Shown in pieces: positions 14,520 through 50,005 of a stretch of 64,000 nt of DNA. The translations under genes and the position numbers were made by a program. This DNA is from Streptomyces davaonensis JCM 4913. Lineage in GTDB: Bacteria; Actinomycetota; Actinomycetes; Streptomycetales; Streptomycetaceae. Within the stretch, counting starts at the first letter, position 1. Each line of letters starts with the position of its first letter. The DNA is taken from positions 7,294,126 through 7,358,125 of the forward strand of contig NC_020504.1 of assembly GCF_000349325.1 (NCBI RefSeq), given 5' to 3'. The notes beneath the pieces were generated by a model. That model was not told where the DNA came from. It saw only the letters and a list, made by a program, of their open reading frames with translations, and did not search any database.

Positions 14520-14542
14520 ACCGTACGGCCGGGCACTGACAA
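14520..14542 (-). promoter_or_regulatory. RecA-NDp-like DNA-damage promoter of ogt
   Basis: On the minus strand the site reads TTGTCAGTG, eight bases, then TACGGT, an exact fit to TTGTCRGTG-N8-TANNNT. The last T is followed by seven bases and then the ogt ATG at 14512, so transcription should begin at or next to the start codon. Confidence 0.8.
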
Positions 14543-14543
14543 C

Positions 14544-14580
14544 GCCCCGGGGAACCGGCACCGCACCGGCTCCCCGGGCC
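14544..14580. terminator. Hairpin between the ogt promoter and GDPD gene
   Basis: Near-complementary arms of about 15 bp (GCCCCGGGGAACCGG and CCGGCTCCCCGGGCC) follow the stop of the minus-strand glycerophosphodiesterase gene. This is a likely terminator, insulating ogt from that gene. Confidence 0.6.
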
Positions 14581-14584
14581 CGGG

Positions 14585-15460
14585 TCACCCTCCTTGCACG
14601 GCGTCGCGCACCACGTCGGGCTTGTTGGTGATGATCCCGTCGACGCCGTACCCGGCGACCCGCCGGGCGTCGGCCGCGGTGTCGACGGTCCAGGTGAAGA
14701 CCTCCAGCGAAGCGCCGTGCGGCCCGGTGAAGGCGTGCACGGCGGCGACATAGCCCGTGGAGATCGAGCCGTGGGCGGGGTTGATCTGGTCGGCGAACTC
14801 GGCGTACGCGGGCAGCTCCGCCACGTTCGGCGTGCCGAGGAACCCGGTCCTGACGGCCGGCTTGAGGTCGCGGACGGTGCGCAGGGTGTCCGCGCCGAAG
14901 CTCTGCACGATCAGCCGCCCGGCCACATGTTCCCGGTCGAGCCAGCCCTCGTTGCCGAGCACCTTCAGGGTCTGCCGCTCGATGCCCGGGTACAGGACGG
15001 GGTTCTTGATCTCCAGGAGCAGCTTCTGGTGGTTCCGCTCGACGCGGTGCAGGTACCGCTCCAGCGTCGGCACGCGCGCGCCCGCGTACTCGGGGCCGAA
15101 CCAGCTGCCGGCGTCCAGGCGTGCGATCTCCGCGGCGGTGAAGTCCTTCACCTTCCAGGGCGCCCGGCCCGGGAAGACCTGCTCCACATCGGTGGTGCGC
15201 ATCAGGTTGTCGTCGTGGAGGACGACCAGCTCACCGTCCTTGGTGCGCTGGACGTCGTTCTCGACCCACTGGATGCCCTGTTCGGCCGCCTTGTCGACGG
15301 CGGCGAGGGTGTTCTCGGGCGCGTAGGCCGAGGCGCCCCGGTGGGCGAGGATCACCGGCGGCTCGCCGGTGCTGCCCGCCCGGGCTGTGGAAGTCGGCAG
15401 CAGGAAAGCGGCGGTCCCCAGGAGCGCGGAGGTCGTGGCGGCAACTGCGCGCGCGTGCAT
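14585..15460 (-). CDS. Secreted glycerophosphodiester phosphodiesterase
   Basis: The 291-residue protein has an N-terminal signal peptide (about 1-28: hydrophobic core, then ARA) followed by a GDPD TIM-barrel. The motifs VILAHRGASAYAPENT (catalytic His), ENDVQRTKDGELVVLHDD and LLLEIKN (metal ligands), and the GVDGIITNKPD end are present. The family hydrolyses glycerophosphodiesters to an alcohol plus glycerol 3-phosphate, which would feed phosphate or carbon scavenging outside the cell. ATG 15460 has AAGGAG at good spacing. Confidence 0.93.
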   Translation of the reverse strand: MHARAVAATTSALLGTAAFLLPTSTARAGSTGEPPVILAHRGASAYAPENTLAAVDKAAEQGIQWVENDVQRTKDGELVVLHDDNLMRTTDVEQVFPGRAPWKVKDFTAAEIARLDAGSWFGPEYAGARVPTLERYLHRVERNHQKLLLEIKNPVLYPGIERQTLKVLGNEGWLDREHVAGRLIVQSFGADTLRTVRDLKPAVRTGFLGTPNVAELPAYAEFADQINPAHGSISTGYVAAVHAFTGPHGASLEVFTWTVDTAADARRVAGYGVDGIITNKPDVVRDAVQGG

Positions 15461-15620
15461 GCGTACTCCTTCTGTCGAACATCACGGTCAGCACCACTGT
15501 GACAGCAGAGCGTCAACAGCAAGGGGTTGCGCCATGGCCATCGATTGAATGGGGTTGCCCAAGTCCGTTCACCACTGCCGCACAACTGGGGCAGGGCCGT
15601 GTTTCTTTGCCGGAAAATCG

Positions 15621-15649
15621 TTCGACCATTCCGGTGGGGGTCATACTCT
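15621..15649 (+). promoter_or_regulatory. Probable promoter for the MHYT gene
   Basis: TTCGAC (15621-15626), a 17-bp spacer and TACTCT (15644-15649) form a housekeeping-type promoter. CCGGAA/TTCCGG arms (15610-15615 / 15629-15634) overlap the -35 and could be an operator. The leader of about 85 nt contains a GACCGC/GCGGTC hairpin. The rest of the 15461-15739 gap shows no gene. Confidence 0.5.
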
Positions 15650-15739
15650 CTGCACTCGACCCTGACCGCTCGGGCGGTCCTGGGAGGGGGTGCACATCAG
15701 CACATTCCAGGATGTAAGAGGGCGGAAGGACAGCCGCGC

Positions 15740-16609
15740 ATGCAGGGCACGGTCGACGGATTCAGCTACGGCCTCGTCACACCGCTGGTGGCCTACCTCA
15801 TGGCCTGCCTCGGTGGCGCCCTCGGCCTGCGCTGCACCACCAGAGCCATGCTCGTCACCCGCTCCTGGCGCCCCGGCTGGCTGGCCCTCGGCTCGGCGGT
15901 CATCGGTTCCGGCATATGGACCATGCACTTCGTCGCGATGATGGGGTTCACCGTCGAGGGGACCCCGATCCACTACGACAAGCCGATGACGTTCGCGAGC
16001 CTCGCCGTCGCCGTCGTCATGGTCGGCGTCGGGATCTTCATAGTCGGCTACAAGGGCGCCCGCGGCACGGCCCTGTTCACCGGCGGCACCATCACCGGGC
16101 TCGGCATAGCCTCCATGCACTACCTGGGCATGGCCGGCCTTCAGCTCGACGGCAAGCTGGAGTACAACACGCTCACCGTCGCCGCGTCCGTCGCCATAGC
16201 GATGGCCGCGGCCACCGCCGCCCTGTGGGCCGCCGGACAGGTCCGGGGCTTCGTGTGGAGCGTGGGCGCGAGCCTCGTCATGGGCCTGGCCGTGAGCGGA
16301 ATGCACTACACCGGAATGGCCGCCCTCAGCGTCCATCTCCACAACGCCCAGAGCACGGCTACCGGCGACTCGCCCGCGGCCGTGCTCGCGCCCATGATGA
16401 TCGGCCCGCTCGCCTTCCTGCTGCTGGCCGGAGTCGTCGTGATGTTCGACCCGCTCATGGTGATGGGCAAGCCCGACCCGGCCGTCGTCGACGACGACAA
16501 GCCCGGCGTCCCGGCCCACAGCTCCCCCGCCCACACCGCCCGCCACCCCCGGCTCCGCACCCGCCGCACCGTCGGCGAACGCCGCTCCCGCACCCCGCAG
16601 AACAGGTGA
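15740..16609 (+). CDS. MHYT-domain integral membrane sensor
   Basis: The 289-residue protein has about seven membrane segments and three repeats of the MHYT signature (WTMHFVAMM near residue 58, SMHYLGMA near 125, GMHYTGMA near 190). The ligand residues Met, His and Tyr are thought to bind copper or sense O2, CO or NO. Many MHYT proteins carry GGDEF/EAL domains, but this one ends in a basic Pro/Arg-rich cytoplasmic tail. It therefore signals, if at all, through another protein. It sits 39 bp upstream of uvrB, which has its own promoter. Confidence 0.9.
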   Translation: MQGTVDGFSYGLVTPLVAYLMACLGGALGLRCTTRAMLVTRSWRPGWLALGSAVIGSGIWTMHFVAMMGFTVEGTPIHYDKPMTFASLAVAVVMVGVGIFIVGYKGARGTALFTGGTITGLGIASMHYLGMAGLQLDGKLEYNTLTVAASVAIAMAAATAALWAAGQVRGFVWSVGASLVMGLAVSGMHYTGMAALSVHLHNAQSTATGDSPAAVLAPMMIGPLAFLLLAGVVVMFDPLMVMGKPDPAVVDDDKPGVPAHSSPAHTARHPRLRTRRTVGERRSRTPQNR

Positions 16610-16619
16610 CCCGGCCGCG

Positions 16620-16642
16620 TTGTCAGTGGGTGGCCGTACGGT
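16620..16642 (+). promoter_or_regulatory. RecA-NDp-like DNA-damage promoter of uvrB
   Basis: TTGTCAGTG (16620-16628), eight bases and TACGGT (16637-16642) match TTGTCRGTG-N8-TANNNT exactly. The ATG of uvrB is at 16649, six bases after the -10, and there is no Shine-Dalgarno sequence. Leaderless transcription is expected. Confidence 0.8.
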
Positions 16643-16648
16643 GGATCC

Positions 16649-18775
16649 ATGCGGCCCGTTTCCAGCATCGAACGCACGGTGGCGCCCTTCGAGGTCGTCA
16701 GCCCCTACCAGCCCAGCGGCGACCAGCCGCAGGCCATCGCCGACCTCGCCCGGCGCATCCAGGCAGGTGAGAAGGACGTCGTCCTGCTCGGCGCGACCGG
16801 CACCGGCAAGTCCGCCACCACCGCGTGGATGATCGAGCAGCTCCAGCGCCCCACCCTGGTCATGGCACCGAACAAGACCCTGGCCGCGCAGCTGGCGAAC
16901 GAGTTCCGGGAGCTGTTGCCGAACAACGCCGTCGAGTACTTCGTCTCGTACTACGACTACTACCAGCCCGAGGCCTACGTCCCGCAGTCGGACACCTACA
17001 TCGAGAAGGACTCCTCCATCAACGAGGAGGTCGAGCGGCTGCGCCACTCCGCCACCAACTCGCTGCTCACCCGCCGCGACGTCGTCGTGGTCGCCTCGGT
17101 GTCCTGCATCTACGGCCTCGGCACCCCGCAGGAGTACGTGGACCGCATGGTCCCCCTCAAGGTCGGCGAGGAGATCGACCGCGACCAGCTGCTGCGCCGC
17201 TTCGTGGACATCCAGTACACGCGCAACGACGCGGCCTTCACCCGGGGCACCTTCCGGGTGCGCGGCGACACCATCGAGATCTTCCCGGTCTACGAGGAGC
17301 TGGCCGTCCGCATCGAGATGTTCGGCGACGAGATCGAGGCGCTGTCCACACTGCACCCCCTCACCGGCGAGATCATCAGCGACGACGAGCAGCTGTACGT
17401 CTTCCCGGCCTCCCACTACGTCGCGGGCCCCGAGCGCCTGGAGCGCGCGGTCAACGACATCGAGAAGGAACTGGGGGAGCGCCTGGCCGAGCTGGAGAAG
17501 CAGGGCAAGCTCCTGGAGGCCCAGCGGCTGCGCATGCGCACCACCTACGACATCGAGATGCTCCGCCAGATCGGCAGCTGCTCCGGCGTGGAGAACTACT
17601 CGATGCACTTCGACGGCCGCCTGCCCGGCTCCCCGCCCAACACCCTGCTCGACTACTTCCCGGACGACTTCCTGCTCGTCATCGACGAGTCGCATGTGAC
17701 CGTGCCGCAGATCGGCGCCATGTACGAGGGCGACGCCTCCCGCAAGCGCACCCTCGTGGACCACGGCTTCCGGCTGCCCTCCGCGCTCGACAACCGCCCG
17801 CTGAAGTGGGAGGAGTTCCAGGAGCGCATCGGCCAGACCGTCTACCTCTCGGCCACCCCGGGCCAGTACGAGCTCTCGCGCTCCGACGGCGCGGTCGAGC
17901 AGATCATCCGCCCCACCGGCCTGGTCGACCCGGAGGTCGTGGTCAAGCCCACCGAGGGCCAGATCGACGACCTGGTGCACGAGATCCGGACGCGCACCGA
18001 GAAGGACGAGCGGGTCCTGGTCACCACCCTCACCAAGAAGATGGCCGAGGATCTCACCGACTACTTCCTGGAACTGGGCATCCAGGTGCGCTACCTGCAC
18101 AGCGACGTCGACACCCTGCGCCGGGTGGAACTGCTGCGCGAACTGCGCGCCGGTGAGTACGACGTCCTGGTCGGCATCAACCTCCTGCGCGAGGGCCTCG
18201 ACCTGCCCGAGGTCTCCCTGGTGGCCATCCTCGACGCGGACAAGGAGGGCTTCCTGCGCTCGGGCACCTCCCTGATCCAGACCATCGGCCGCGCCGCGCG
18301 TAACGTCTCCGGCCAGGTCCACATGTACGCCGACAAGATCACCCCGGCGATGGAGAAGGCCATCGACGAGACCAACCGCCGCCGGGAGAAGCAGGTCGCG
18401 TACAACAGGGCCAACGGCATCGACCCGCAGCCGCTGCGCAAGAAGATCAACGACATCGTCGCGCAGATCGCCCGCGAGGACGTCGACACCGAGCAACTGC
18501 TCGGCTCCGGCTACCGCAAGAGCAAGGACGGCAAGGGCGCCAAGGCTCCCGTGCCCGCCCTGGGCGCGAAGTCGGCCAAGAGCAAGGGCAAGGCCAAGGA
18601 GGCCGTGCCCACCGACCGGCCGGCCGCCGAGCTCACCGAGCAGATCGAGGAGATGACCGCGCGGATGCGCGCCGCCGCGGCCGACCTCCAGTTCGAGATC
18701 GCGGCCCGGCTGCGCGACGAGGTCTCCGAGATGAAGAAGGAACTGCGCCAGATGAAGGAGGCGGGCCTGGCCTGA
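16649..18775 (+). CDS. uvrB: Excinuclease ABC subunit B
   Basis: The 708-residue protein has the full UvrB layout. Walker A is [16 protein letters not shown] (Lys at residue 55). The beta-hairpin region includes [21 protein letters not shown], and the DEAD-like motif is [13 protein letters not shown]. The helicase C-terminal half includes [27 protein letters not shown] and QTIGRAARN, and a C-terminal UVR motif (about 660-700) binds UvrC. UvrB verifies damage loaded by UvrA and positions UvrC for incision. A Lys/Ala-rich linker precedes the UVR motif. The gene is monocistronic with its own promoter. Confidence 0.98.
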
Positions 18776-18842
18776 CGGGGCAGGAGAGACCGCGCGGGGG
18801 CCGCAGTGTTGCAAGACCGACACAAAGTGCGGACCTGGGTTA

Positions 18843-18857
18843 GGCACTGTCAGTGCC
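18843..18857. promoter_or_regulatory. 15-bp inverted repeat overlapping the terD -35 region
   Basis: GGCACT-GTC-AGTGCC is a perfect inverted repeat lying over the CTGTCAGTG element of the terD promoter. It could be a second operator, or chance symmetry created by the promoter motif itself. Confidence 0.45.
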
Positions 18858-18869
18858 CCTGCGTAGGGT
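18847..18869 (+). promoter_or_regulatory. RecA-NDp-like promoter of the terD block
   Basis: CTGTCAGTG (18847-18855), eight bases and TAGGGT (18864-18869) match the damage-promoter consensus with one mismatch, in its first base. It lies 57 bp before the terD GTG. It would drive terD and, 62 bp after terD, the TerD-FtsK-like gene. Confidence 0.65.
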
Positions 18870-18926
18870 TCTCGTCATCCGCGGACTCCGCGGAAACAGG
18901 GGACAGTTCGAGAGGGGATTCAGCAC

Positions 18927-19505
18927 GTGACCGTCAACATGACCAAGGGTCAGGCCATCAGTCTTCAGAAGAACGACGGCGGCAGCCTGACCGCGGTGCG
19001 CATGGGTCTCGGCTGGCAGGCAGCCCCCCGGCGTGGCCTGTTCGGCTCGCGCACCCGCGAGGTCGACCTGGACGCCTCCGCCGTTCTGTTCGCCGACAAG
19101 CAGCCGGTCGACGTGGTCTTCTTCCGTCACCTGGTGAGCGACGACGGCTCGGTCCGGCACACCGGTGACAACCTGGTCGGCGGCGTCGGCCAGGGCGGCG
19201 ACGACGAGGCGATCCTCGTCGACCTGGCCCGCGTCCCGGTCCACATCGACCAGATCGTCTTCACTGTGAACTCCTTCACGGGCCAGACCTTCCAGGAGGT
19301 GCAGAACGCCTTCTGCCGTCTGGTCGACGAGACCAACGGCCAGGAGCTCGCCCGCTACACGCTCGCGGGCGGCGGCGCCTACACCGCCCAGATCATGGCC
19401 AAGGTGCACCGCACCGGCCCGAGCTGGACGATGACGGCCATCGGCACGCCCGCCAACGGCCGTACCTTCCAGGACCTGATGCCGGCGATCCTGCCGCACC
19501 TGTAG
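18927..19505 (+). CDS. terD: TerD-family stress protein
   Basis: The 192-residue single-domain TerD has the calcium-site blocks intact: EVDLDASAVLF (about 44-54), HTGDNLVGGVGQGGDDEAILVDL (about 76-98) and the VHIDQIVFTVNSF strand. TerD proteins bind Ca2+ and belong to tellurite and general stress systems whose biochemical output is still unclear. GTG 18927 follows GAGAGGGG. It appears co-transcribed with the TerD-FtsK-like gene. The promoter suggests induction by DNA damage, linking it with uvrB upstream. Confidence 0.95.
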   Translation: MTVNMTKGQAISLQKNDGGSLTAVRMGLGWQAAPRRGLFGSRTREVDLDASAVLFADKQPVDVVFFRHLVSDDGSVRHTGDNLVGGVGQGGDDEAILVDLARVPVHIDQIVFTVNSFTGQTFQEVQNAFCRLVDETNGQELARYTLAGGGAYTAQIMAKVHRTGPSWTMTAIGTPANGRTFQDLMPAILPHL

Positions 19506-19567
19506 GTCCCACCGGCGAGCAGCACACTTCACGACACGAGACACAGCGACACAGGGGGACGAAGGCG

Positions 19568-21580
19568 ATGACGGCCGAGCTGGTGCGGGGACAGAATCAC
19601 CCGCTCTCCCAGGCCCGTCTTGAGATCCGGGTCTCGGCCGGCGCGCCGATCGTGGCGGGCGCCACGCTCGGCGACGAGAACGGCAAGGTCCACGGCACGG
19701 AGTGGGTGGCCCATCCGGGCGCGCCCACCCAGCCGGGCCTGGAGGTCTCCCGGCAGGCGGCCGCCGACCATCGCCTCGCGGTGGACCTGGACGCCGTGCC
19801 CGAAGTTGTGCACCGGGTCAGTGTGCTGCTCGCCCTGCCCACCGGCGTGGGGGGCCCGGTCCGCTTCGGCGCGGTCGCCGCCCCCTTCATCGCGGTCACC
19901 GGCCTCGACGGCACCGAGGTGGCCAGCTACACCATCACCGGCCTGGACGCCGAGTCGGCCGTCGTTGCCCTGGAGCTCTACCGCCGCCAGGGCGCCTGGA
20001 AGGTGCGCGCCATAGGCCAGGGCTACGCGGGCGGCCTCGCCGAGCTGCTCGCCGACCAGAACCTGCCCGAGGCCGGCACGCTGGCGAACAGCATCAACGA
20101 CGCGGTGGCCCAGGGCATGGCCCGCTCGGTCCCGGCGCCCCCGTCGCGTACGGCGGACTCCGACCGGCACAGGCCGCAGACGGCGCCCGCCGTGGGCCCC
20201 GACCAGGGCGGCCCCACCCCCACCTCGCCGTACGGCACCCAGGGCGCCCCCGGCGCCGTACCGCCGTCGCCCGCGACACCGCCGTACGGTGAGCCGCCGC
20301 AGAACACGCCCGCGTCCGGCTACCCGGCCGCGTCCGGCGATCCGTCCGCCACCAGCGGCGGCGTCAACTACAGCCACCCGCGGCGGCAGAACACGACCCC
20401 GCCGCCGCCCGCCCCGCCCGCGCCCCCGGCCCAGCCGGGTCAGCCCGGTCAGCCCGTCGCGGGCGACGCCACCGGCTGGTCCATGGACGAGCGGCTCTAC
20501 AACCAGGTCTGGGGCATGTTCGAGGACCTGGCGCGGACGACCGCCGCGTACCGCAGCGCCGTCGACTTCGCCGACTCGCGCATGGAGAAGGAGCTGGACC
20601 AGGTCCTGTCCGATCCGCGCAGCCGGATCGGCGGTCAGGGCGACGCCGCCCGCGAGGCGGCCCAGGCCAAGCACGCCCAGCTCGTGGACCAGGCCAGGGC
20701 CACCCTCGACCGGGACCTCGCCCAGCTCACCGCCGAGGTCGATGTCGTCGAGCCCGCGCTGCCCCCGCCCTACGCCCGCTGGGACAACCCGGTCTGGCAT
20801 GCCTACCGTGTGCCGATGGAGACGCCCATGGCGGTGCGCCTGGGCGATCTGCACCTGCCCGAGAGCGATCCGCTGCGGATCCCGATGCTGGTCCGGCTGC
20901 CGCTGGAGCGCGGTCTGTGGATCGACAGCGGAGCGTCCGGATCGCTGGACGGCGCGTTCCACGACTCGCACGATCTGCGCCGGCTCGCCCTGGAGACGGC
21001 CGTGGCGCATGCGGCCCGGCTGCTCGCCGTCTATCCGGCGGGCGACTTCACGGTCCATGTCATCGACCCGGCCGGTTCCGGCGCCCAGCCGCTCGCGCCG
21101 CTGGTGCAGACCGGTGTGCTCGCCGCTCCGCCCGCCGTCGGCGCGGCGGGGGTGACGGAGCTCCTCGGCCGTCTCACCCAGCGCGTCGACCTGGTGCAGA
21201 TGGCGGTGCGCGGTGGCGCGCCCGAGTCGCTCCCGCAGGGCTTCGACACCTCCGAGCAGCTGCTGATCGTCAATGACTTCCCGCACGGCTTCGACGACCG
21301 GGCCGTGAACCAGCTGCGCTATCTCGCGGACGAGGGCCCGTCCGTCGGCGTCCATCTGATGATGGTCGCGGACCGCGAGGAGGCCTCCGCCTACGGCCCG
21401 CTGCTGGACCCGTTGTGGCGTTCGCTGCTGCGACTGACCCCGGTGCCCGAGGACCACCTCGCCGACCCCTGGGTGGGCCATGCCTGGACGTACGAGCCCC
21501 CGCTCGTGCCGCCCGGCAGTCAGGTGCTCCAGCAGGTGCTGACCCAGGTCGCCGCGGCCCGCCGCTCCTGGAACCGGTGA
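19568..21580 (+). CDS. TerD-like domain fused to a degenerate FtsK/HerA-like domain
   Basis: The 670-residue protein has three parts. Residues 1-175 are a TerD-like beta-sandwich that lacks the DLDAS and GDxxxG calcium motifs of its neighbour. Residues 176-300 are a Pro/Gly-rich disordered linker. Residues 300-670 have the layout of an FtsK/SpoIIIE-type ATPase: a strand, WIDSGASGSLDGAFHDS in the P-loop position (about 450), VHVIDPAG, LLIVNDFPHGFDD in the Walker B position (about 564), and SVGVHLMMVADRE, similar to FtsK RaxGIHLI-type segments. The P-loop lysine is absent, so ATP hydrolysis is doubtful. ATG 19568 has GGGGGACGAAGG upstream. Confidence 0.85.
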   Translation: MTAELVRGQNHPLSQARLEIRVSAGAPIVAGATLGDENGKVHGTEWVAHPGAPTQPGLEVSRQAAADHRLAVDLDAVPEVVHRVSVLLALPTGVGGPVRFGAVAAPFIAVTGLDGTEVASYTITGLDAESAVVALELYRRQGAWKVRAIGQGYAGGLAELLADQNLPEAGTLANSINDAVAQGMARSVPAPPSRTADSDRHRPQTAPAVGPDQGGPTPTSPYGTQGAPGAVPPSPATPPYGEPPQNTPASGYPAASGDPSATSGGVNYSHPRRQNTTPPPPAPPAPPAQPGQPGQPVAGDATGWSMDERLYNQVWGMFEDLARTTAAYRSAVDFADSRMEKELDQVLSDPRSRIGGQGDAAREAAQAKHAQLVDQARATLDRDLAQLTAEVDVVEPALPPPYARWDNPVWHAYRVPMETPMAVRLGDLHLPESDPLRIPMLVRLPLERGLWIDSGASGSLDGAFHDSHDLRRLALETAVAHAARLLAVYPAGDFTVHVIDPAGSGAQPLAPLVQTGVLAAPPAVGAAGVTELLGRLTQRVDLVQMAVRGGAPESLPQGFDTSEQLLIVNDFPHGFDDRAVNQLRYLADEGPSVGVHLMMVADREEASAYGPLLDPLWRSLLRLTPVPEDHLADPWVGHAWTYEPPLVPPGSQVLQQVLTQVAAARRSWNR

Positions 21581-21690
21581 CCCTGATCTGACCTTTACAA
21601 AGCATCGGTAAAGCCACCCTGAGCTTGGCTTTTGGTCTTTCTTTTACCTCACTCTTTACCTTTCCTTGGCGATTGGGTTACTCTCCTTTG

Positions 21691-21763
21691 TACGGAGGGG
21701 GAGTGCTCCTGACCTCCGGCAGCGACGACAACGCTGACCTTTGCCGTTCTGAACTGCCGGAGG
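21691..21763 (+). promoter_or_regulatory. Structured terC leader, candidate translational riboswitch
   Basis: Arms CCTCCGGCAG (21713-21722) and CTGCCGGAGG (21754-21763) pair perfectly over 10 bp and bury GGAGG, the terC ribosome site, which lies four bases before GTG 21768. The same CCTCCG can instead pair with CGGAGG at 21693-21698, freeing the ribosome site. A GGGGAGT element sits between the alternatives, and a small CAGCG/CGCTG hairpin lies in the loop. TerC genes are classic yybP-ykoY (Mn2+) riboswitch targets, but the second conserved loop of that class is not recognisable. The likely promoter is TTTACC-N18-TACTCT, just upstream. Confidence 0.55.
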
Positions 21764-21767
21764 CGCA

Positions 21768-22769
21768 GTGGATGTTTCCGTGACCCTGTGGGTCCTGACG
21801 ATCGTGGGCCTCGCCGCCCTGATCGCGGTCGACTTCTTCATCGGCCGCAAGCCGCACGACGTGTCCATCAAGGAAGCCGGGATCTGGACCGTCGTCTGGA
21901 TCGCCCTCGCCGGACTCTTCGGCCTCGGCCTGCTGCTCTTCGGCGGCGGGCAGCCGGCCGGTGAGTTCTTCGCCGGCTTCATCACCGAGAAGTCGCTGAG
22001 CGTCGACAACCTCTTCGTCTTCGTCCTGATCATGGCGAAGTTCGCGGTGCCCTCGCAGTACCAGCAGCGCGTGCTGCTCGTCGGCGTGCTCATAGCCCTG
22101 GTCCTGCGCGCGATCTTCATCGCCGCCGGTGCCGCGATCCTCGCCAGCTTCGCCTGGGTGTTCTACCTCTTCGGCGCCTTCCTGATCTGGACCGCCTGGA
22201 AGCTCATCCAGGAGGCCCGCGCCGACGACGAGGAAGAGGAGTTCGAGGAGAACAAGCTCCTCAAGGCCGCCGAGCGCCGCTTCGGTGTCGCCGACCGTTA
22301 CCACGGCACCAAGCTGTGGATCGAGCAGAACGGCAAGCGGGTCATGACCCCGATGCTCGTCGTGATGCTCGCGATCGGTACGACGGACGTCCTGTTCGCC
22401 CTCGACTCCATCCCCGCGATCTTCGGCCTGACGCAGGACCCGTACATCGTCTTCACCGCCAACGCCTTCGCCCTGATGGGCCTCAGGCAGCTGTACTTCC
22501 TCATCGGCGGCCTGCTGAGGAAGCTGGTCCACCTGAGCTACGGCCTGTCGGTCATCCTCGGCTTCATCGGCGTGAAGCTGGTCCTGCACGCCCTGCACGA
22601 GTCCGGGGTGCATGTCCCGGAGATCAGCATTCCGGTCTCGCTCGGCGTCATCTGCTCGGTCCTGATCGTCACCACGATCACCAGCCTCCGTGCCTCCAAG
22701 AAGCAGGTGGCGGCCGAGGCGGCGCAGAAGGAGAGCGAAGGCGCTCCGAAGGACAGCATCGGGGCCTGA
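21768..22769 (+). CDS. terC: TerC-family membrane protein (metal exporter type)
   Basis: The 333-residue protein has about nine membrane segments with TerC signatures: LIAVDFFIGRK, EKSLSVDNLFVFVLIMAKF (conserved acidic pair in the membrane) and a second half with DVLFALDSIPAIFGLTQDPYIVFTANAFALMGLRQLYF. The family includes Mn2+ exporters (Alx, MeeF/YceF) and tellurite-resistance proteins that may load metals onto exported proteins. The ribosome site is within a competing hairpin, suggesting translational control. A strong terminator follows. It lies next to the terD block, though with its own leader. Confidence 0.95.
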   Translation: MDVSVTLWVLTIVGLAALIAVDFFIGRKPHDVSIKEAGIWTVVWIALAGLFGLGLLLFGGGQPAGEFFAGFITEKSLSVDNLFVFVLIMAKFAVPSQYQQRVLLVGVLIALVLRAIFIAAGAAILASFAWVFYLFGAFLIWTAWKLIQEARADDEEEEFEENKLLKAAERRFGVADRYHGTKLWIEQNGKRVMTPMLVVMLAIGTTDVLFALDSIPAIFGLTQDPYIVFTANAFALMGLRQLYFLIGGLLRKLVHLSYGLSVILGFIGVKLVLHALHESGVHVPEISIPVSLGVICSVLIVTTITSLRASKKQVAAEAAQKESEGAPKDSIGA

Positions 22770-23201: not shown

Positions 23202-23214
23202 CCCAGCGGCAGGC

Positions 23215-29129: not shown

Positions 29130-29152
29130 TTGTCAGTGGCTCCCCCTAGTCT
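29130..29152 (+). promoter_or_regulatory. RecA-NDp-like DNA-damage promoter of uvrA
   Basis: TTGTCAGTG (29130-29138), eight bases and TAGTCT (29147-29152) match TTGTCRGTG-N8-TANNNT exactly. Transcription should start near 29159, giving a leader of about 50 nt before GTG 29208 (GAAAGGTG upstream). Confidence 0.8.
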
Positions 29153-29207: not shown

Positions 29208-32249
<3,042 letters not shown>

Positions 32250-37564: not shown

Positions 37565-37587
37565 CTGTCACCCCTCGCCAGTAGGGT
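37565..37587 (+). promoter_or_regulatory. Degenerate RecA-NDp-like promoter of uvrC
   Basis: CTGTCACCC, eight bases and TAGGGT (37582-37587) keep the TGTCA core, the N8 spacing and the TANNNT -10 of the damage motif but lose the GTG part. The uvrC ATG is at 37595, seven bases after the -10, so the message should be leaderless. Confidence 0.45.
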
Positions 37588-37594: not shown

Positions 37595-39577
37595 ATGGCC
37601 GACCCCTCCAGCTACCGCCCCAGGCCGGGACAGATCCCGGACTCCCCCGGGGTCTATCGCTTCCGTGACGAGCACCGCCGGGTGATCTACGTCGGAAAGG
37701 CGAAGAGCCTGCGCCAGCGCCTTGCGAACTACTTCCAGGACCTGGCCGGACTGCATCCGCGCACTAGGACGATGGTCACCACGGCCGCGTCCGTGGAGTG
37801 GACGGTGGTGTCCACGGAGGTCGAGGCGCTCCAGCTGGAGTACTCCTGGATCAAGGAGTACGACCCCCGGTTCAACGTCAAGTACCGCGACGACAAGAGC
37901 TATCCCTACCTCGCGGTGACGCTGAACGAGGAGTTCCCGCGCGTGCAGGTGATGCGCGGTCACAAGAAGAAGGGCGTGCGCTACTTCGGGCCGTACGGCC
38001 ACGCGTGGGCGATCCGCGACACCGTCGACCTCCTGCTCCGCGTCTTCCCCGTGCGCACCTGCTCGGCCGGAGTCTTCAAGAACTCCGCCCGCACCGACCG
38101 CCCCTGTCTGCTCGGCTACATCGGCAAGTGCTCCGCGCCCTGCGTGGGCCGCGTCTCGCCCGAGGAACACCGGGAACTGGCCGAGGAGTTCTGCGACTTC
38201 ATGGCCGGGCGCACCGGCACCTATCTGCGCCGCCTGGAGAAGCAGATGATGCTGGCGGCCGACGAGATGGAGTACGAGCGGGCCGCCCGGCTGCGTGACG
38301 ACATCGAGGCCCTGAAGAAGGCCATGGAGAAGAGCGCGGTCGTGCTCGCCGACGCGACCGACGCCGACCTGATCGCCGTCGCCGAGGACGAGCTGGAGGC
38401 GGCCGTGCAGATCTTCCACGTCCGCGGCGGACGCGTGCGCGGCCAGCGCGGCTGGGTCACCGACAAGGTCGAGGAGATCACCACCGGCGCCCTCGTCGAA
38501 CACGCCCTCCAGCAGCTCTACGGCGAGGAGACCGGGGACTCGGTGCCCAAGGAGGTCCTCGTCCCGGCCCTGCCCGACCCGGCGGAGCCGGTCCAGGAGT
38601 GGCTCACCGAGCGCCGTGGGTCGAACGTCTCGCTGCGCATTCCGCAGCGCGGCGACAAGAAGGCGCTGATGGAGACCGTCGAGCGCAACGCCCAGCAGGC
38701 CCTCGTCCTGCACAAGACCAAGCGGGCCTCCGACCTGACCACGCGCTCGCGCGCGCTGGAAGAGATCGCCGACGCCCTCGGCCTGGACAGCGCGCCGCTG
38801 CGGATCGAGTGCTACGACATCTCGCACCTCCAGGGCGACGACGTGGTGGCCTCCATGGTCGTCTTCGAGGACGGCCTCCAGCGCAAGGGCGAGTACCGCC
38901 GCTTCCAGATCAAGGGCTTCGCCGGCCAGGACGACGTCCGTTCCATGCACGAGGTGATCTCCCGCCGCTTCAAGCGGTACATCGCCGAGAAGGAGAAGAC
39001 TGGTGAGTGGGCCGACGGTGAGGACCCCCTCACCGAGGACGACGGCCGCCCCAAGAAGTTCGCCTACCCGCCCCAGCTCGTCGTCGTCGACGGCGGGCAG
39101 CCCCAGGTCGCCGCCGCCAAGAAGGCCCTGGACGAGCTGGGTATCGACGACATCGCCGTCTGCGGTCTCGCCAAGCGTCTGGAGGAGGTCTGGCTGCCCG
39201 GCGAGGACGACCCGGTGGTCCTGCCCCGCACCAGCGAGGGCCTGTATCTGCTCCAGCGGGTCCGTGACGAGGCCCACCGCTTCGCGATCACCTATCAGCG
39301 AGCCAAGCGAGCCAAGCGGTTCCGGTCCAGCCCGCTGGACGACGTCCCGGGCCTCGGCGAGACCCGCAAGCAGGCGCTGATCAAGCACTTCGGTTCGGTG
39401 AAGAAGCTGCGATCGGCGACAATCGACCAGATCTGTGAGGTTCCGGGCATAGGTCGCAAAACGGCCGAGACCATTGCCGCGGCCTTCGCCCAGGCGGCCC
39501 CGGCCGCGCCCGCCGTGAACACGGCGACTGGAGAGATCATGGAAGACATGGACGACCTACGGGGGCAGGAGACATGA
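37595..39577 (+). CDS. uvrC: Excinuclease ABC subunit C
   Basis: The 660-residue protein has a GIY-YIG nuclease domain ([27 protein letters not shown], about 16-42), a Cys cluster ([15 protein letters not shown]), a UVR motif ([20 protein letters not shown]), an RNase H-like C-terminal nuclease ([34 protein letters not shown]) and helix-hairpin-helix DNA-binding repeats ([34 protein letters not shown]). It makes both incisions around damage verified by UvrB. Its stop overlaps the rapZ start (ATGA), so it leads the uvrC-rapZ-yvcK-whiA operon. Confidence 0.98.
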
Positions 39578-42574: not shown

Positions 42575-42587
42575 CGCCCGCTCACCA

Positions 42588-42630: not shown

Positions 42631-42719
42631 CGTGTCCTGAGGCGCCCTTGACTCGATCATGGAGTGTCATGAGCCTGGCATCTGTTCGCTGACGTGGCGA
42701 ACCCACACCAGGGGGGTTC

Positions 42720-45674
42720 ATGAGACACAGAGCGAGATCGATCCTCGCTGTCGGCGCGCTCCTGATCGGCGGAGCGAGCTTCGCACCCATCGCCCAGGCA
42801 CAGAACGGCAGTTCGGACACACCCGGTTCGGACGAGGTCAAGGTCTTCCGCGCCGAGGTCACCAAGCAGCAGATCCCGCTGCTGCTGGCCGCCGGACAGG
42901 ACGGCCACGAATTCAGTGAGCAGGCGCCCGAGAAGGGCACCGCCACGATCGAGGTCTACCTCACCGACGCCCAGGCCGAGAAGCTGGAGAAGCACGGCGT
43001 CGAACTCACCGAGCACACCCTGTCCGCCAAGGCCGAACAGCGCGTCGAGGCCGCCGCCGAAGGCGTCTTCCGCCCCTACAGCGGCAGCGGTGGCCTGAAG
43101 GAGGAGATCCTCCGGGCCGGCCAGGAGAACCCCGGCCTCACCAAGGTCGTCTCCATCGGGAAGACCGTCACCGGCCAGGACATCCTCGCGCTGAAGCTCA
43201 CCAAGAACGCCAAGAACTCCAAGGACGGCGCCAAGCCCGCCGTGCTGTACATGTCCAACCAGCACGCGCGCGAGTGGATCACCCCGGAGATGACCCGCCG
43301 GCTGATGCACCACTACCTGGACAACTACAAGTCCGACCGGCGCATCAAGAAGATCGTCGACAGCACCGAGCTGTGGTTCGTGCTCTCGGCCAACCCCGAC
43401 GGCTACGACTACACCTTCCAGGACGACGGCGACCGCCAGTGGCGCAAGAACCTGAAGGACGTCAACGCCGACGGCGTCATCAGCACCGGCGACGGCGTCG
43501 ACCTCAACCGCAACTTCCCCTACAAGTGGGGCTACGACAACGAGGGTTCGTCCCCCAACCCCACCAGCCAGACCTATCGCGGCGACGCCCCGGGCTCGGA
43601 GCCGGAGACCAAGGCGATCGACGCCTTCCAGAAGCGCATCGGCTTCGAACTCGGCATCAACTACCACTCGGCCGCCGAACTCCTCCTCTACGGCGTCGGC
43701 TGGCAGGTGGCCACGAACACCCCGGACGACGTCCTCTACAAGGCACTGGCCGGAACCCCCGACAACTCCGCGATCCCGGGCTACCACCCGCAGGTCTCCT
43801 CGGAGCTGTACACCACCAACGGCGAGGCCGACGGACACGCCTCCAACGTCAACGGCCTGGCGATGTTCACGCCCGAGATGTCGACCTGCCAGACCGCCTC
43901 GAACGTCGACCTGAACGACGCCTGGCTCCCCGGCGACTGCCAGTCGGTCTTCACCTTCCCGGACGACGAGAAGCTGATCCAGCAGGAGTTCACCAAGAAC
44001 GTCCCGTTCGCGCTCTCCGTCGCCGAGTCCGCCGCCCACCCCGACCAGCCGGTCTCCGCGCTCGGCCTGAAGGCCGCCGACTTCACCCCGGCGCCGTTCA
44101 CCACGTCGTACTCCCGCGGCGCCGACCAGGAGATCTCCGTCGTCGCCCGTAAGGCGCTGCGCGACAAGGAGCTCAAGTACCGCGTCAACGGCGGCCGTAC
44201 GCACGACATGGCGCTCCGGCCCTGGAAGGGCGGCGAGACCTACGGCGGTGCGGACAACCTCCACTTCGACGAGTACCGCGCCAAGGCCGCCGACGGCGAT
44301 CAGGGCGATCGGGTCGAGGTCTGGTTCACCGGCGAGACCAGGAGCGGCAAGAAGGTCTCCAGCGAGCACTTCACCTACACCGTCGCCGAACGCCCGCGCG
44401 CGGACGTCCTCGTCGTGGCCGAGGAGGGCGTGGCCGCGACCCAGGCGCAGACCTACGTCGACGCGCTGAAGGCCAACGGCCACAAGGCGGTCGTCTGGGA
44501 CGTCGCCACGCAAGGAGCGCCGGACGCGCTCGGCGTGCTCGGCCACTTCGAAACCGTCGTCCACTACACCGGCGCCGGCGTCCCCGGCAACGCCACCCAG
44601 CTCCAGCTGCGCGCCTTCCTCAACGAGGGCGGCAAGCTGATCGAGGCCGGCGAACAGGCGGGCGGCAACGTCGACCTCGGCGGCGGCACCCTGTCCAACG
44701 ACTTCAGCCAGTACTACCTCGGCGCCTACAGCCGCACGTCGCTGCCCGGGGCCACCGCCTTCGAGGGCTCCGGCGGAATCGCGGGCGCCCAGGGCACGCT
44801 GGCCGGGGCACCGGGCAACCCGCTGAACGCGGCCGGGTCCTACAGCGTCACCTCCGAGACCCTGCCCGCGGACACGTTCCCGCAGTTCGCGAGCGCCGGG
44901 GCGGGCCGCTACCCGGGCGCGGTCAACCCGTACGGCCCGTACGAGGGCAGCTACATGGCGGCCGTCACCCACAGCGACTACGCCTGGAACCGCCTCACCC
45001 GCACCGTCGACCTCACCTCCGTGACCGCCGCGGACGCCCCCAAGCTGCGCACCCGCATGCTGTGGAGCACCGAGCCGGGCTACGACCACGCCGTACTGGA
45101 GGCCCGTACCGCGGGCGGTGACGACTGGACCACGCTGCCGGACCTGGGCGGTGCGACCGGCACCGCGGTGCCCGAGGAGTGCTCGGCCGGGTACTTCATC
45201 CAGGCTCACCCCGCGCTCAAGCGGTACCTGACGCTCGCCGGAGGGGCCTGCACCCCGTCCGGCACCAGCGGCTCCTGGAACAGCTTCACCGGCGCTTCGG
45301 CCGGCTGGCAGGAGGTCTCCTTCGATCTGTCCGCCTACGCGGGCCGGACCGTGGAGCTCTCCCTCGGCTACATCACCGACCCCGGCTCCGGCGGACGCGG
45401 CGTTCTCGTCGACAACGCCTCCGTCGTGATCGGCGGCAGCGAGACCCAGACCGAGGGCTTCGAGACCTCGCTCGGCGCCTGGAGCACCCCCGGCCCACCC
45501 GCGGGCAGCCCCGCGGTCGTCAAGGACTGGGCCCGCGTGGGCCAGCTCTTCCAGACGTACGGCGCGGTCACCACACACGACACCGTGCTGCTCGGCTTCG
45601 GCCTGGAGCACGTGGTCGCCCCGGCCGACCGGGCGGCCCTGATCGGCAAGGCGCTCACCGCCCTCGACGGGTGA
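42720..45674 (+). CDS. Large secreted M14 zinc carboxypeptidase
   Basis: The 984-residue protein has a signal peptide (about 1-27, ending AQA). A propeptide-like region (about 40-120) is followed by the M14 catalytic domain: SNQHAREWITPEM with the HxxE zinc ligands, ANPDGYDYT, DLNRNFPYKWG and INYHSAAELLLYG with the third zinc His, then FTPEMST, probably the catalytic Glu. A calcium-like insert DVNADGVISTGDGV precedes NRNF. The last 500 residues hold a possible class-I-amidotransferase-like (GATase) module (DVLVVAEEGVAATQAQTYVDALKANG...) and a beta-sandwich with MAM/jelly-roll character. It should release C-terminal amino acids outside the cell. Confidence 0.93.
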   Translation: MRHRARSILAVGALLIGGASFAPIAQAQNGSSDTPGSDEVKVFRAEVTKQQIPLLLAAGQDGHEFSEQAPEKGTATIEVYLTDAQAEKLEKHGVELTEHTLSAKAEQRVEAAAEGVFRPYSGSGGLKEEILRAGQENPGLTKVVSIGKTVTGQDILALKLTKNAKNSKDGAKPAVLYMSNQHAREWITPEMTRRLMHHYLDNYKSDRRIKKIVDSTELWFVLSANPDGYDYTFQDDGDRQWRKNLKDVNADGVISTGDGVDLNRNFPYKWGYDNEGSSPNPTSQTYRGDAPGSEPETKAIDAFQKRIGFELGINYHSAAELLLYGVGWQVATNTPDDVLYKALAGTPDNSAIPGYHPQVSSELYTTNGEADGHASNVNGLAMFTPEMSTCQTASNVDLNDAWLPGDCQSVFTFPDDEKLIQQEFTKNVPFALSVAESAAHPDQPVSALGLKAADFTPAPFTTSYSRGADQEISVVARKALRDKELKYRVNGGRTHDMALRPWKGGETYGGADNLHFDEYRAKAADGDQGDRVEVWFTGETRSGKKVSSEHFTYTVAERPRADVLVVAEEGVAATQAQTYVDALKANGHKAVVWDVATQGAPDALGVLGHFETVVHYTGAGVPGNATQLQLRAFLNEGGKLIEAGEQAGGNVDLGGGTLSNDFSQYYLGAYSRTSLPGATAFEGSGGIAGAQGTLAGAPGNPLNAAGSYSVTSETLPADTFPQFASAGAGRYPGAVNPYGPYEGSYMAAVTHSDYAWNRLTRTVDLTSVTAADAPKLRTRMLWSTEPGYDHAVLEARTAGGDDWTTLPDLGGATGTAVPEECSAGYFIQAHPALKRYLTLAGGACTPSGTSGSWNSFTGASAGWQEVSFDLSAYAGRTVELSLGYITDPGSGGRGVLVDNASVVIGGSETQTEGFETSLGAWSTPGPPAGSPAVVKDWARVGQLFQTYGAVTTHDTVLLGFGLEHVVAPADRAALIGKALTALDG

Positions 45675-45823
45675 GACCGGACTCCGAGCGACCCCACTCT
45701 CCGTGAGGAAGAGGTGACAGGACGGTGAAGCCCAGGGGCGGTCCGTACCCCTACTGGCGGGTAAGGAACGCCTGCCCGTGTATGCGGCATCTCGATGTCA
45801 CCACGGGGGCCTCAGGGAGGTAG

Positions 45824-46909
<1,086 letters not shown>

Positions 46910-46938
46910 TCCCCGGAGCAGGCACTTCGATGTGAGAG

Positions 46939-46978
46939 CAGGGCCCGGGCGGCGCAGGGACGCGCCGCCCGGGCCCTG
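46939..46978 (+). terminator. gap terminator
   Basis: Perfect 17-bp arms (46939-46955 and 46962-46978) with a 6-nt loop lie 30 bp after the gap stop. This is the strongest hairpin in the window. Confidence 0.92.
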
Positions 46979-47043
46979 ACTCGCGTAAAGACCGGCCCAC
47001 TTAGGATCACGAGCATCACGCACACTCCTCGGGAGCCCTCTCA

Positions 47044-48255
47044 ATGAAGACGATCGACGAACTTCTCGCCGAAGGCGTCGCAGGCAAGCGGGTCTTCGTC
47101 CGCGCCGACCTGAACGTGCCGCTGGCCGGCACCACGATCACCGACGACGGCCGTATCCGCGCCGTCCTGCCCACCGTCAAGGCCCTCGCCGAGGCGGGCG
47201 CCCGCGTGATCGTGGCCTCCCACCTGGGCCGCCCCAAGGGCGCCCCGGACCCGGCCTTCTCACTCGCCCCCGCGGCCGCGCGCCTCGGTGAACTGCTCGG
47301 CGCGGACGTCGCCTTCGCCACCGACACGGTCGGCGAGTCGGCGCGCTCCACCGTCGCGGGCCTCGCCGACGGCCAGGTCGCCGTCATCGAGAACCTGCGC
47401 TTCAACGCCGGCGAGACCAGCAAGGACGACGCCGAGCGCGCCGGCTTCGCCCGCGAACTCGCCGCCCTCGCCGACGCCTACGTCGGTGACGGCTTCGGCG
47501 CCGTGCACCGCAAGCACGCCTCCGTGTACGACCTCCCGGCCGAGCTGCCGCACTACGCCGGCTACCTCATCGCCACCGAGGTCGGCGTCCTGAAGAAGCT
47601 CACCGAGGACGTCAAGCGGCCCTACGCCGTGGCCCTCGGCGGCTCCAAGGTCTCCGACAAGCTGGCCGTCATCGACCAGCTCCTCGGCAAGGCCGACCGC
47701 ATCCTCATCGGTGGCGGCATGGCCTTCACCTTCCTCAAGGCCAAGGGCTACGAGGTCGGCACCTCGCTGCTCCAGGAGGACCAGATCCCGGCCGTCACCG
47801 AATACCTGGAGCGCGCCGAGAAGCTGGGCGTCGAACTGGTGCTCCCGGTCGACGTCGTGGTCTCCCCGGGCTTCCCGGACCTGAAGGCCAAGGCGCCCAC
47901 CGAGCACACCGCCGTCGACGCGGACCGGATGCCCGAGGGGCAGCTGGGCCTGGACATCGGCCCGAAGACCGGCGAACTGTACGCCGGAAAGCTCACCGAC
48001 GCCGCGACCGTGTTCTGGAACGGTCCCATGGGCGTCTTCGAGCACCCCGACTACGCCGAGGGCACCAAGGCGGTCGCCCAGGCCCTCGTCGACTCGGACG
48101 GGTTCACCGTCGTCGGTGGCGGAGACTCCGCCGCTGCCGTGCGTACGCTCGGTTTCGACGAGAACGCGTTCGGCCACATCTCGACCGGTGGCGGCGCCTC
48201 CCTCGAATACCTCGAGGGCAAGACGCTCCCCGGCCTCGCCGCACTGGAGGACTGA
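47044..48255 (+). CDS. pgk: Phosphoglycerate kinase
   Basis: The 403-residue protein has the N-domain [11 protein letters not shown] and ASHLGRPKG substrate-binding blocks, ENLRFNAGE and [15 protein letters not shown]. The nucleotide-binding C-domain shows [25 protein letters not shown] and GGGDSAAAV and ends in [13 protein letters not shown]. It makes ATP from 1,3-bisphosphoglycerate. It is the first gene of the pgk-tpiA pair, with the tpiA start only four bases after its stop. Confidence 0.98.
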
Positions 48256-48259
48256 CCCG

Positions 48260-49036
48260 ATGAGCACGCGCACGCCGCTGATGGCGGGCAACTGGAAGAT
48301 GAACCTCAACCACCTCGAGGCCATCGCCCACGTCCAGAAGCTCGCCTTCGCCCTCGCGGACAAGGACTACGAGGCCGTCGAGGTCGCCGTCCTGCCGCCC
48401 TTCACCGACCTGCGCTCCGTGCAGACCCTGGTCGACGGCGACAAGCTGAAGATCAAGTACGGCGCCCAGGACATCTCGGCGCAGGACTCCGGCGCCTACA
48501 CCGGTGAGATCTCCGGCCCGATGCTGGCCAAGCTGAAGTGCACGTACGTGGCCATCGGCCACTCCGAGCGCCGCCAGTACCACAACGAGACCGACGAGAT
48601 CGTCAACGCCAAGGTCAAGGCCGCCTACAAGCACGGCCTGACCCCGATCCTGTGCGTCGGCGAGGAGCTGGACGTCCGCGAGGCGGGCAACCACGTCTCC
48701 CACACCCTCGCCCAGGTCGAGGGCGGTCTGAAGGACCTCCCGGCCGAGCAGGCCGAGACCATCGTGATCGCCTACGAGCCCGTCTGGGCCATCGGCACCG
48801 GCAAGGTCTGCGGCGCCGGGGACGCCCAGGAGGTCTGCGCGGCCATCCGCGGCAAGCTCGCCGAGCTGTACACGCAGGACGTCGCCGACAAGATCCGCAT
48901 CCAGTACGGCGGCTCGGTGAAGTCCGGCAACTGCGCCGAGATCATGGCGCAGCCCGACATCGACGGCGCCCTGGTCGGCGGTGCTTCGCTGGACGCCGAC
49001 GAGTTCGTCAAGATCGTGCGCTTCCGCGACCAGTGA
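48260..49036 (+). CDS. tpiA: Triosephosphate isomerase
   Basis: The 258-residue TIM barrel has MAGNWKMN (Lys near residue 13), [18 protein letters not shown] with the catalytic His, [12 protein letters not shown] with the catalytic Glu and flexible lid, and [16 protein letters not shown] plus [10 protein letters not shown] for phosphate binding. ATG 48260 was chosen because homology begins there and GGAGG lies nine bases upstream, within the end of pgk. It is translationally linked with pgk. Confidence 0.98.
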
Positions 49037-49070
49037 GTATGCGGTAGCGGCGATCCGTCGTACCCTTGCG

Positions 49071-49096
49071 GGGGCACAGCCCGGTGGCTGTGCCCC
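49071..49096 (+). terminator. tpiA-secG intergenic hairpin
   Basis: Perfect 11-bp arms GGGGCACAGCC and GGCTGTGCCCC enclose a 4-nt CGGT loop, between tpiA and secG. It is a terminator or attenuator that would lower read-through into secG. Confidence 0.8.
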
Positions 49097-49132
49097 TGTC
49101 GTCCATCCAGATCCGAGGAAGTTGGTCCAGCC

Positions 49133-49369
49133 GTGGTTATGGGGTTCTCGATCGCCCTGATCGTGTTCAGCGGGCTGCTGATGCTGCTGGTGCTGATGCA
49201 CAAGGGCAAGGGCGGCGGCCTCTCCGACATGTTCGGTGGCGGGATGCAGTCGTCCGTCGGCGGCTCCTCGGTCGCCGAGCGCAACCTCGACCGGATCACC
49301 GTCGTGGTCGGTCTGCTGTGGTTCGCGTGCATTGTCGTGCTCGGCCTTCTGATGAAGGTGAACAACTGA
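49133..49369 (+). CDS. secG: Protein-export membrane protein SecG
   Basis: The 78-residue protein has two membrane helices (about 3-22 and 56-74) joined by the conserved cytoplasmic loop KGKGGGLSDMFGGG. SecG stimulates SecYE translocation. GTG 49133 is preferred over ATG 49139 because GAGGAAG lies about eleven bases upstream of the GTG. Position after tpiA is the usual one in high-GC Gram-positive bacteria. Confidence 0.95.
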   Translation: MVMGFSIALIVFSGLLMLLVLMHKGKGGGLSDMFGGGMQSSVGGSSVAERNLDRITVVVGLLWFACIVVLGLLMKVNN

Positions 49370-49386
49370 CCGGCACGCACAATCCG

Positions 49387-49498
49387 TACGTAAGGCCCCA
49401 TGTTCGGTACGCGCAGCTGAGCGCGGCCTATCATGGGGCTTGCGTCTTGATATGGGGCCTGTAACTCCAATCACTGGACGCGCGTTGGGCCTTACGTA
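49387..49498 (+). repeat. Long inverted repeat in the leader of the RbpA-family gene
   Basis: Arms TACGTAAGGCCC (49387-49398) and GGGCCTTACGTA (49487-49498) are perfect over 12 bp and enclose 88 nt that include two ATGGGGC copies. A second inverted pair, CGAAGCGA/TCGCTTCG, follows at about 49515-49539. The 198-bp gap 49370-49567 holds no gene. It may be a structured leader or small RNA. Confidence 0.55.
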
Positions 49499-49567
49499 GA
49501 CTGAGGCGCTCGCAACGAAGCGAAACGCCGACTCGCTTCGCGGCACCATCACGCAGGGAGTTACACC

Positions 49568-49903
49568 GTGGCAAGTGGCAACGCGATCCGAGGAAGCCGG
49601 GTCGGGGCGGGGCCGATGGGCGAGGCCGAGCGCGGCGAGTCCGCGCCCCGGTTGCGCATCTCCTTCTGGTGCTCCAACGGGCACGAGACCCAGCCCAGCT
49701 TCGCCAGCGACGCGCAGGTCCCCGACACCTGGGACTGCCCGCGCTGCGGCTTTCCCGCCGGGCAGGACCGGGACAACCCGCCGGACCCGCCGCGCACCGA
49801 GCCCTACAAGACGCACCTGGCGTACGTGCGGGAGCGGCGCAGCGACGCGGACGGCGAGGCGATCCTCGCCGAGGCGCTCGCCAAACTGCGGGGCGAGATC
49901 TAG
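49568..49903 (+). CDS. RNA polymerase-binding protein, RbpA family (divergent paralogue)
   Basis: The 111-residue protein has the RbpA layout: a basic N-terminal tail (NAIRGSRVGAGP), a small core with zinc-type ligands (CSNGHE and CPRCGFP, about 35-63) and the sigma-interacting end (PPRTEPYKTHLAYVRERRSDADGEAILAEALAKLRGEI). RbpA stabilises the open complex with the principal sigma factors. The sequence differs clearly from the classical Streptomyces RbpA (different core and shorter end), so I take it as the second paralogue. GTG 49568 has GGGAG seven bases upstream. Confidence 0.88.
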   Translation: MASGNAIRGSRVGAGPMGEAERGESAPRLRISFWCSNGHETQPSFASDAQVPDTWDCPRCGFPAGQDRDNPPDPPRTEPYKTHLAYVRERRSDADGEAILAEALAKLRGEI

Positions 49904-49982
49904 AACTTGAGGACCGGCCAGGCGCCCATCGGTGCCTGGCCGGAGCTGTATCGCGGGCCGCCGCTCCCCGGGCCCCGGCCGA

Positions 49983-50005
49983 TTGTCAGTGGTGCCCTCT
50001 ACGGT
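49983..50005 (+). promoter_or_regulatory. RecA-NDp-like DNA-damage promoter of the MFS exporter
   Basis: TTGTCAGTG (49983-49991), eight bases and TACGGT (50000-50005) match TTGTCRGTG-N8-TANNNT exactly. It lies 45 bp before the GTG at 50051. Confidence 0.75.

Follow-up and report, generated by a model that had tools for sequence, protein, structure and literature searches.

Candidate PafBC-type promoters and a probable DNA-damage regulon with non-repair members in Streptomyces davaonensis

In mycobacteria, DNA-damage genes are activated by PafBC at RecA-NDp promoters, for which the consensus tTGTCRgtg-8nt-TannnT has been published (PMC5656591). In Mycobacterium tuberculosis, the short core of this element reads TGTCGG, TGTCAG or TGTCAC, followed by N10-TA-N3-T (PMC8151990). 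PafB of M. smegmatis contacts the -26 element, and the exchanges R181A or Y196A, or the changing of three arginines together, abolish its binding to single-stranded DNA (ssDNA) (PMC11804915). Here we describe the same element in a 64,000-nucleotide stretch of Streptomyces davaonensis JCM 4913 DNA, called the window (C1:7294126-7358125 of a 9.56 Mb genome), where it precedes the repair genes ogt, uvrB, uvrA and uvrC, a terD gene and a gene for a transporter of the major facilitator superfamily (MFS).

Two promoters of this type have been described in Streptomyces, at S. coelicolor recA and at SCO6735, the latter being UV-inducible (PMC5087735; PMC9411070). Our sites share with them the type, the genus and the recA member; unlike those papers, which in their accessible parts deal with single genes, we counted sites over a whole genome and genus samples. 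Another damage response described in the genus is the LexA regulon (SOS) of S. venezuelae, where LexA binds recA, ruvC-ruvA, lexA, dnaE2-dinP, alkB and, weakly, uvrA (PMC9380542). The targets recA, ruvC and perhaps uvrA are common to both sets, but the element is a different one, and activation in place of repression is presumed here.

The mycobacterial regulon is among the closest counterparts. It has the same consensus, a PafBC pair beside pafA and overlapping members such as recA, uvrA, uvrC and ruvC (PMC5656591; PMC8223512). The present set differs in genus and in the strong preference for A at the R position (62 of 70 strict sites). Wadjet II (an anti-plasmid system), the MFS exporter, TerD, NACHT and SUKH genes also occur here, none of which was seen among the mycobacterial members in the accessible parts of the cited literature. 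As far as these sources go, the regulator is already known from mycobacteria, and the promoter type from recA and SCO6735 of Streptomyces. What is new is the list of sites over the whole genome, the tendency to leaderless starts, and the membership of Wadjet and of the exporter.

The element, its targets and its presumed activator

Exact copies of TTGTCAGTG-N8-TANNNT lie in the window at 14520-14542 (minus strand), 16620-16642, 29130-29152 and 49983-50005 (all plus strand). A fifth copy at 18847-18869 (plus), in front of terD, has one mismatch, the first T being changed to C. Our scan thus reproduced the five positions given in an earlier sequence-only reading of this DNA, and no other place in the window matches at two mismatches or fewer. 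In 100 shuffled windows the mean was 0.49 and the maximum 2 matches, and the five matches of the long core compare with 0.02 expected from 200 first-order Markov resamplings. The sixth site, at uvrC (37565-37587), had been called degenerate; it does depart from the long core at three positions, but it fits the TGTCAC-N10-TA-N3-T variant reported in M. tuberculosis (PMC8151990). The short core TGTC(RG or AC)-N10-TANNNT has six matches in the window, exactly the six sites of the sequence-only reading, against 0.1 expected (30 first-order Markov resamplings). All six are correctly oriented, and the measured gaps between motif end and start codon agree with the range of 6-57 bp given there:

14520..14542, minus strand: candidate PafBC-type (RecA-NDp) promoter of ogt; exact match, -10 TACGGT at 14520-14525, start codon 7 bp downstream
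13958..14512, minus strand: ogt, O6-methylguanine DNA methyltransferase, predicted leaderless (Pfam PF01035, PF02870)
16620..16642, plus strand: candidate PafBC-type promoter of uvrB; exact match, -10 TACGGT at 16637-16642, gap 6 bp
16649..18775, plus strand: uvrB, predicted leaderless (open reading frame, ORF, with Pfam UvrB domains)
18847..18869, plus strand: candidate PafBC-type promoter of terD; one mismatch, -10 TAGGGT at 18864-18869
18927..19505, plus strand: terD, TerD-domain protein, 57 bp leader from the -10 (Pfam PF02342)
19568..21580, plus strand: 670-aa TerD-domain protein downstream of terD (Pfam PF02342), possibly on the same transcript
29130..29152, plus strand: candidate PafBC-type promoter of uvrA; exact match, -10 TAGTCT at 29147-29152, gap 55 bp
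29208..32249, plus strand: uvrA (Pfam UvrA domains); GTG start at 29208 set by its ribosome-binding site and chosen by script
37565..37587, plus strand: candidate weak PafBC-type promoter of uvrC, TGTCAC variant; short-core match, -10 TAGGGT at 37582-37587, gap 7 bp
37595..39577, plus strand: uvrC, predicted leaderless (Pfam UvrC domains)
49983..50005, plus strand: candidate PafBC-type promoter of the MFS gene; exact match, -10 TACGGT at 50000-50005, gap 45 bp
50051..51319, plus strand: MFS transporter, a probable drug-type exporter (Pfam MFS_1, MFS_3; NCBIfam TIGR00900 at 181 bits, below the cut-off of 319.6)

A scan of the whole genome, proposed as a check in the sequence-only reading, gave a clear excess. 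At up to one mismatch, TTGTCAGTG-N8-TANNNT yields 54+54 matches (34 exact) against 1+1 for the reversed pattern. The strict core TGTCRGTG-N8-TANNNT has 70 sites (34 on the plus and 36 on the minus strand) against 0+0 for the pattern read backwards. A script based on third-position G+C chose the ORF downstream of each site, and some of its choices may be wrong. Pfam was run on all 70 ORFs, NCBIfam and PADLOC on some of them, and gene names are our reading of the domains.

That the motif stands upstream of repair genes is borne out insofar as 26 of the 70 targets concern replication, repair or dTTP supply, a grouping of our own that is not set against the number of repair genes genome-wide. They comprise recA, uvrA, uvrB, ogt, recQ, radA, ruvC, rarA, nth and xseA; helicases (two UvrD-type, two RecD2-type, one DinG/YoaA and one HelY-type); a uracil-DNA glycosylase, an AlkZ-like glycosylase, an ExoIII-type and a PD-(D/E)XK nuclease; and dnaE1, dnaX, rpsF with ssb downstream, thyX and an MFS-dTMP kinase fusion. 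A DarG-like macrodomain protein, also among the 26, is a weak match (35.8 bits against a model cut-off of 250) and may be the SCO6735 counterpart. The remaining targets include miaB, dapF, moaA, folB, a mycothiol S-transferase, an ECF sigma factor, TerD, the MFS gene of the window, an ABC transporter, NACHT, SUKH, DUF4132 and DUF4365 proteins, and unknowns.

The consensus of the Streptomyces sites is identical to the published tTGTCRgtg-8nt-TannnT (PMC5656591), as the sequence-only reading had recognised. The genome contains one adjacent pafB-pafC pair, located after pafA and an FKBP-type gene (order pafA-FKBP-pafB-pafC). In the PDB, PafB is closest to M. smegmatis chain 7p5x_AY (E 4e-52) and PafC to 7p5x_AX (E 1e-51); residues R181, Y196, R204 and R208 of M. 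smegmatis PafB are all identical in the aligned Streptomyces protein. A TTGACA-like hexamer (two mismatches or fewer) stands 16-19 bp before the -10 at 1 of 70 sites, compared with 63 of 840 control positions. This near-absence of a -35 box fits sigma adaptation, in which PafBC replaces the -35 contact.

We consider it very likely that the six sites are PafBC-dependent (RecA-NDp) sigma-A promoters belonging to a genome-wide DNA-damage regulon of about 70 strict sites. A PafBC-type regulon that includes non-repair members is well supported by the motif excess, the repair genes downstream, the pafBC pair with its sensing residues, the missing -35 box and conservation in the genus. The binding of PafBC, its sensing of ssDNA and the induction by damage are carried over from mycobacteria. 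By this analogy, ssDNA accumulating after damage would be bound by PafBC through its WYL domains. Sigma A RNA polymerase, lacking a -35 contact, would be offered one by PafBC at the -26 element TGTCRGTG, and would open the -10 TANNNT 8 bp downstream of it. About half of the transcripts would then begin on the start codon itself (leaderless), and the rest would carry a leader, often with a ribosome-binding site; these start points are predicted from the spacing between motif and codon.

Conservation and competing explanations

Strict sites are present in all 19 same-genus genomes (24-72 each, 959 in total against 11 controls). In the other 177 genomes of the class there are 2139 sites against 81 controls; sites exceed controls in 158 genomes, equal them in 14 and are fewer in 5. 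Single loci were compared in genus genomes, 30 each for uvrB and uvrC (from 41 genomes each), 29 of the 30 uvrB loci for terD, and 30 from 61 genomes for the MFS gene. The exact core is found at 29 of 30 uvrB loci and in 22 of 23 MFS orthologs (58-100% identity, own locus included), against none of 7 MFS paralogs (41-43%). At uvrC the long core is exact at 12 of 30 loci and within one mismatch at 20. Because the exact core is kept at only 15 of 29 terD loci, membership of terD is lineage-dependent, and the exporter is the firmer member of the two. At 8 of the 14 terD loci without the exact upstream element the -10 context GCGTAGGGT is retained, which suggests that the promoter type has changed there.

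Several observations weigh against a PafBC-type regulon of this extent. A few of the 70 sites may be fortuitous, namely those before an IS630-like transposase and before a low-G+C gene at 8729804, and two for which the start chosen is 240 bp away. Of 196 class genomes 192 have a PafB match, and 11 of these hold no strict site. Outside the class, a clear motif excess is missing from most genomes in the phylum sample, although many have PafB-like matches (among 296 genomes, a strict site in 156 and a PafB-like match in 225); such matches may be something else than PafB. Finally, an initial motif search by Stratton et al. suggested a lack of conservation in S. venezuelae for the PafBC motif known from M. 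smegmatis (PMC9380542); the counts in the 19 same-genus genomes speak against its absence from Streptomyces. The four class genomes that gave no PafB match contain 3 sites against 1 control, a sample too small to test for joint loss. Dependence on PafBC is thus argued from the consensus and from the mycobacterial work, not from co-loss.

Another activator, ClgR or a different WYL protein, might read the element and leave PafBC a secondary role. In favour of this, the genome has ten WYL-domain matches, and a study cited in PMC5656591 reports recognition of the same P1 element by ClgR in M. smegmatis. Against it, a ClgR box of the form GTTCGC-N4-8-GCG occurs near 1 of the 70 sites. PafB and PafC, moreover, are clear orthologs with the sensing residues kept, and it is PafB that contacts the -26 element in M. 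smegmatis (PMC11804915). We regard a leading role of another activator as very improbable.

Slightly less credible still is that the genes are SOS genes under LexA repression, the TGTCAGTG element being incidental. LexA binding in S. venezuelae, at the targets given above, favours this, as does recA, which here carries an imperfect LexA-like box, CGAACATCCATTCT, that contains the CGAACATCCATTC belonging to the SOS box of recA in S. venezuelae. In addition, 27 of 70 sites have a 14-mer at two mismatches or fewer from CGAAC-N4-GTTCG, a figure for which no control was run. Perfect GAAC-N4-GTTC boxes, by contrast, occur at none of the 70 sites within -300..+150, so LexA control of the whole set was rejected. 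Moreover, the element is kept while the spacer letters vary at uvrB (29/30) and at the MFS gene (22/23), neither of which is among the LexA targets named in the accessible parts of PMC9380542. The sequence-only reading had seen no LexA-type box at these genes; at terD, one of the 14-mers just mentioned is one mismatch away. Its further proposal, a LexA-independent regulon with non-repair members, stands as to the members, but its independence needs qualifying for some of them, given the binding of LexA in S. venezuelae at recA, at ruvC-ruvA and, weakly, at uvrA (PMC9380542). As these targets carry PafBC-type sites here, dual control by LexA and PafBC, as reviewed in mycobacteria (PMC8223512), is likely at recA, ruvC and perhaps uvrA.

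A chance resemblance of ordinary housekeeping promoters, to which the sigma-A type -10 TANNNT and the survival of GCGTAGGGT at terD loci lacking the upstream element would point, was rejected as hardly conceivable: TTGTCA stands 11 bp before the TA, whereas a -35 box would be 16-19 bp away, a position where 1 of 70 sites carries one, and the 70 sites compare with 0 for the reversed control.

Predicted leaderless starts and the Wadjet II operon

At 34 of the 70 sites the motif is followed, at a distance of precisely 6 or 7 bp, by an in-frame ATG (25) or GTG (9), the place at which transcription would be expected to begin. The offsets 0-5 and 8-20 bp hold 0-2 starts each, single later offsets up to 6, and offset -2, within the motif's own last bases, holds 9. 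The same spacing (RTG 6-7 bp after the motif) recurs at 464 of 959 sites in the 19 genus genomes, at 157 of 297 in family f3 (16 genomes) and at 244 of 801 in family f80 (17 genomes), or 213 of 485 when two extreme genomes are set aside. These two, G538 and G555, have 118 and 198 strict sites compared with 17-63 in the 15 other f80 genomes, and only 14 and 17 leaderless ones. With the extra sites so seldom leaderless, a repeated element may carry the motif there. At uvrB and uvrC, all 30 loci each have a gap of 6-7 bp between motif and start codon. Leaderless starts make up 21.0% of the primary starts in S. coelicolor (PMC4895711), and our literature search, as far as the sources were accessible, found no report linking PafBC promoters with leaderless mRNA. 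The layout suggests a damage response translated independently of a Shine-Dalgarno leader.

One strict site with this layout, at C1:6877755 (L155 from 1256), belongs to a complete Wadjet II operon, JetA2-B2-C2-D2 (L155:1285-9744), and is separated by 7 bp from the start of JetA. All four genes match PADLOC models (E <= 3e-127), as expected for Wadjet type II. The JetA protein has its closest named relatives in Streptomyces species (88-93% identity). A JetA-like match exists in 53 of 150 genus genomes, from which 30 loci were taken. In the 12 close ones (70-100%) the motif is exact in 7 and within one mismatch in 8; the 18 distant ones have no exact copy and one with a single mismatch, located in the -10. 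A set of 70 JetA loci from named genomes was compared as well. Of the 25 with 81% identity or more, 21 carry the exact motif and all 25 carry it with one mismatch at most, compared with 3 exact and 5 one-mismatch copies in the 45 loci of 77% or less. In all 33 named-genome loci within one mismatch, RTG follows 6-7 bp after the motif. The promoter is kept in a lineage of close relatives. A PafBC-type promoter predicted to be leaderless distinguishes this operon from described Wadjet type II systems, for which the accessible parts of the literature, PMC9122601 included, contain no such report. We give an even chance to the proposal that, in one Streptomyces Wadjet II lineage, this promoter lets a sensor of ssDNA and damage switch on plasmid destruction together with repair and export. 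If true, PafBC would raise the alarm not only at damage but also at foreign DNA that enters in single-stranded form.

Some neighbouring observations are added here. The site at G000:C1:8729804 precedes a low-G+C DUF4365 gene and lies about 12 kb from a second JetA-like gene (8741749-8742936; distant, 30% identity); a defence island possibly lies here. The MFS-dTMP kinase fusion (L163:3531-6725), with a PafBC-type site just upstream, is about 1064 aa long and combines an MFS-type portion with a domain of dTMP kinase (TIGR00041, above cut-off). In the window, a phosphoglucose isomerase gene (PF00342) at 51373-53025 is next after the MFS exporter. In phage contigs, at least 120 stretches contain the leaderless motif and at least 120 its reversed control. 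Among the matches listed, G+C exceeds 0.6 in 11 of 120 compared with 2 of 120 reversed, and 8 of these 11 G+C-rich viral stretches, against 0 of 2 reversed, open a frame of at least 100 codons. The viral contigs concerned are those from L299 onward (for example L321, L327, L345, L359, L379 and L382). This is suggestive of phage genes that might use the host's damage activator.

Meaning for Streptomyces

According to PMC9380542, a response similar to that of mycobacteria was still to be shown in Streptomyces. Our site counts, together with the pafBC pair, speak to that question: the genus very probably has a PafBC-type damage response, for which about 70 candidate promoters can now be named. 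A damage sensor linked to an exporter and to an anti-plasmid system would connect repair with genotoxic compounds and with the uptake of DNA, in the foremost genus of antibiotic producers.

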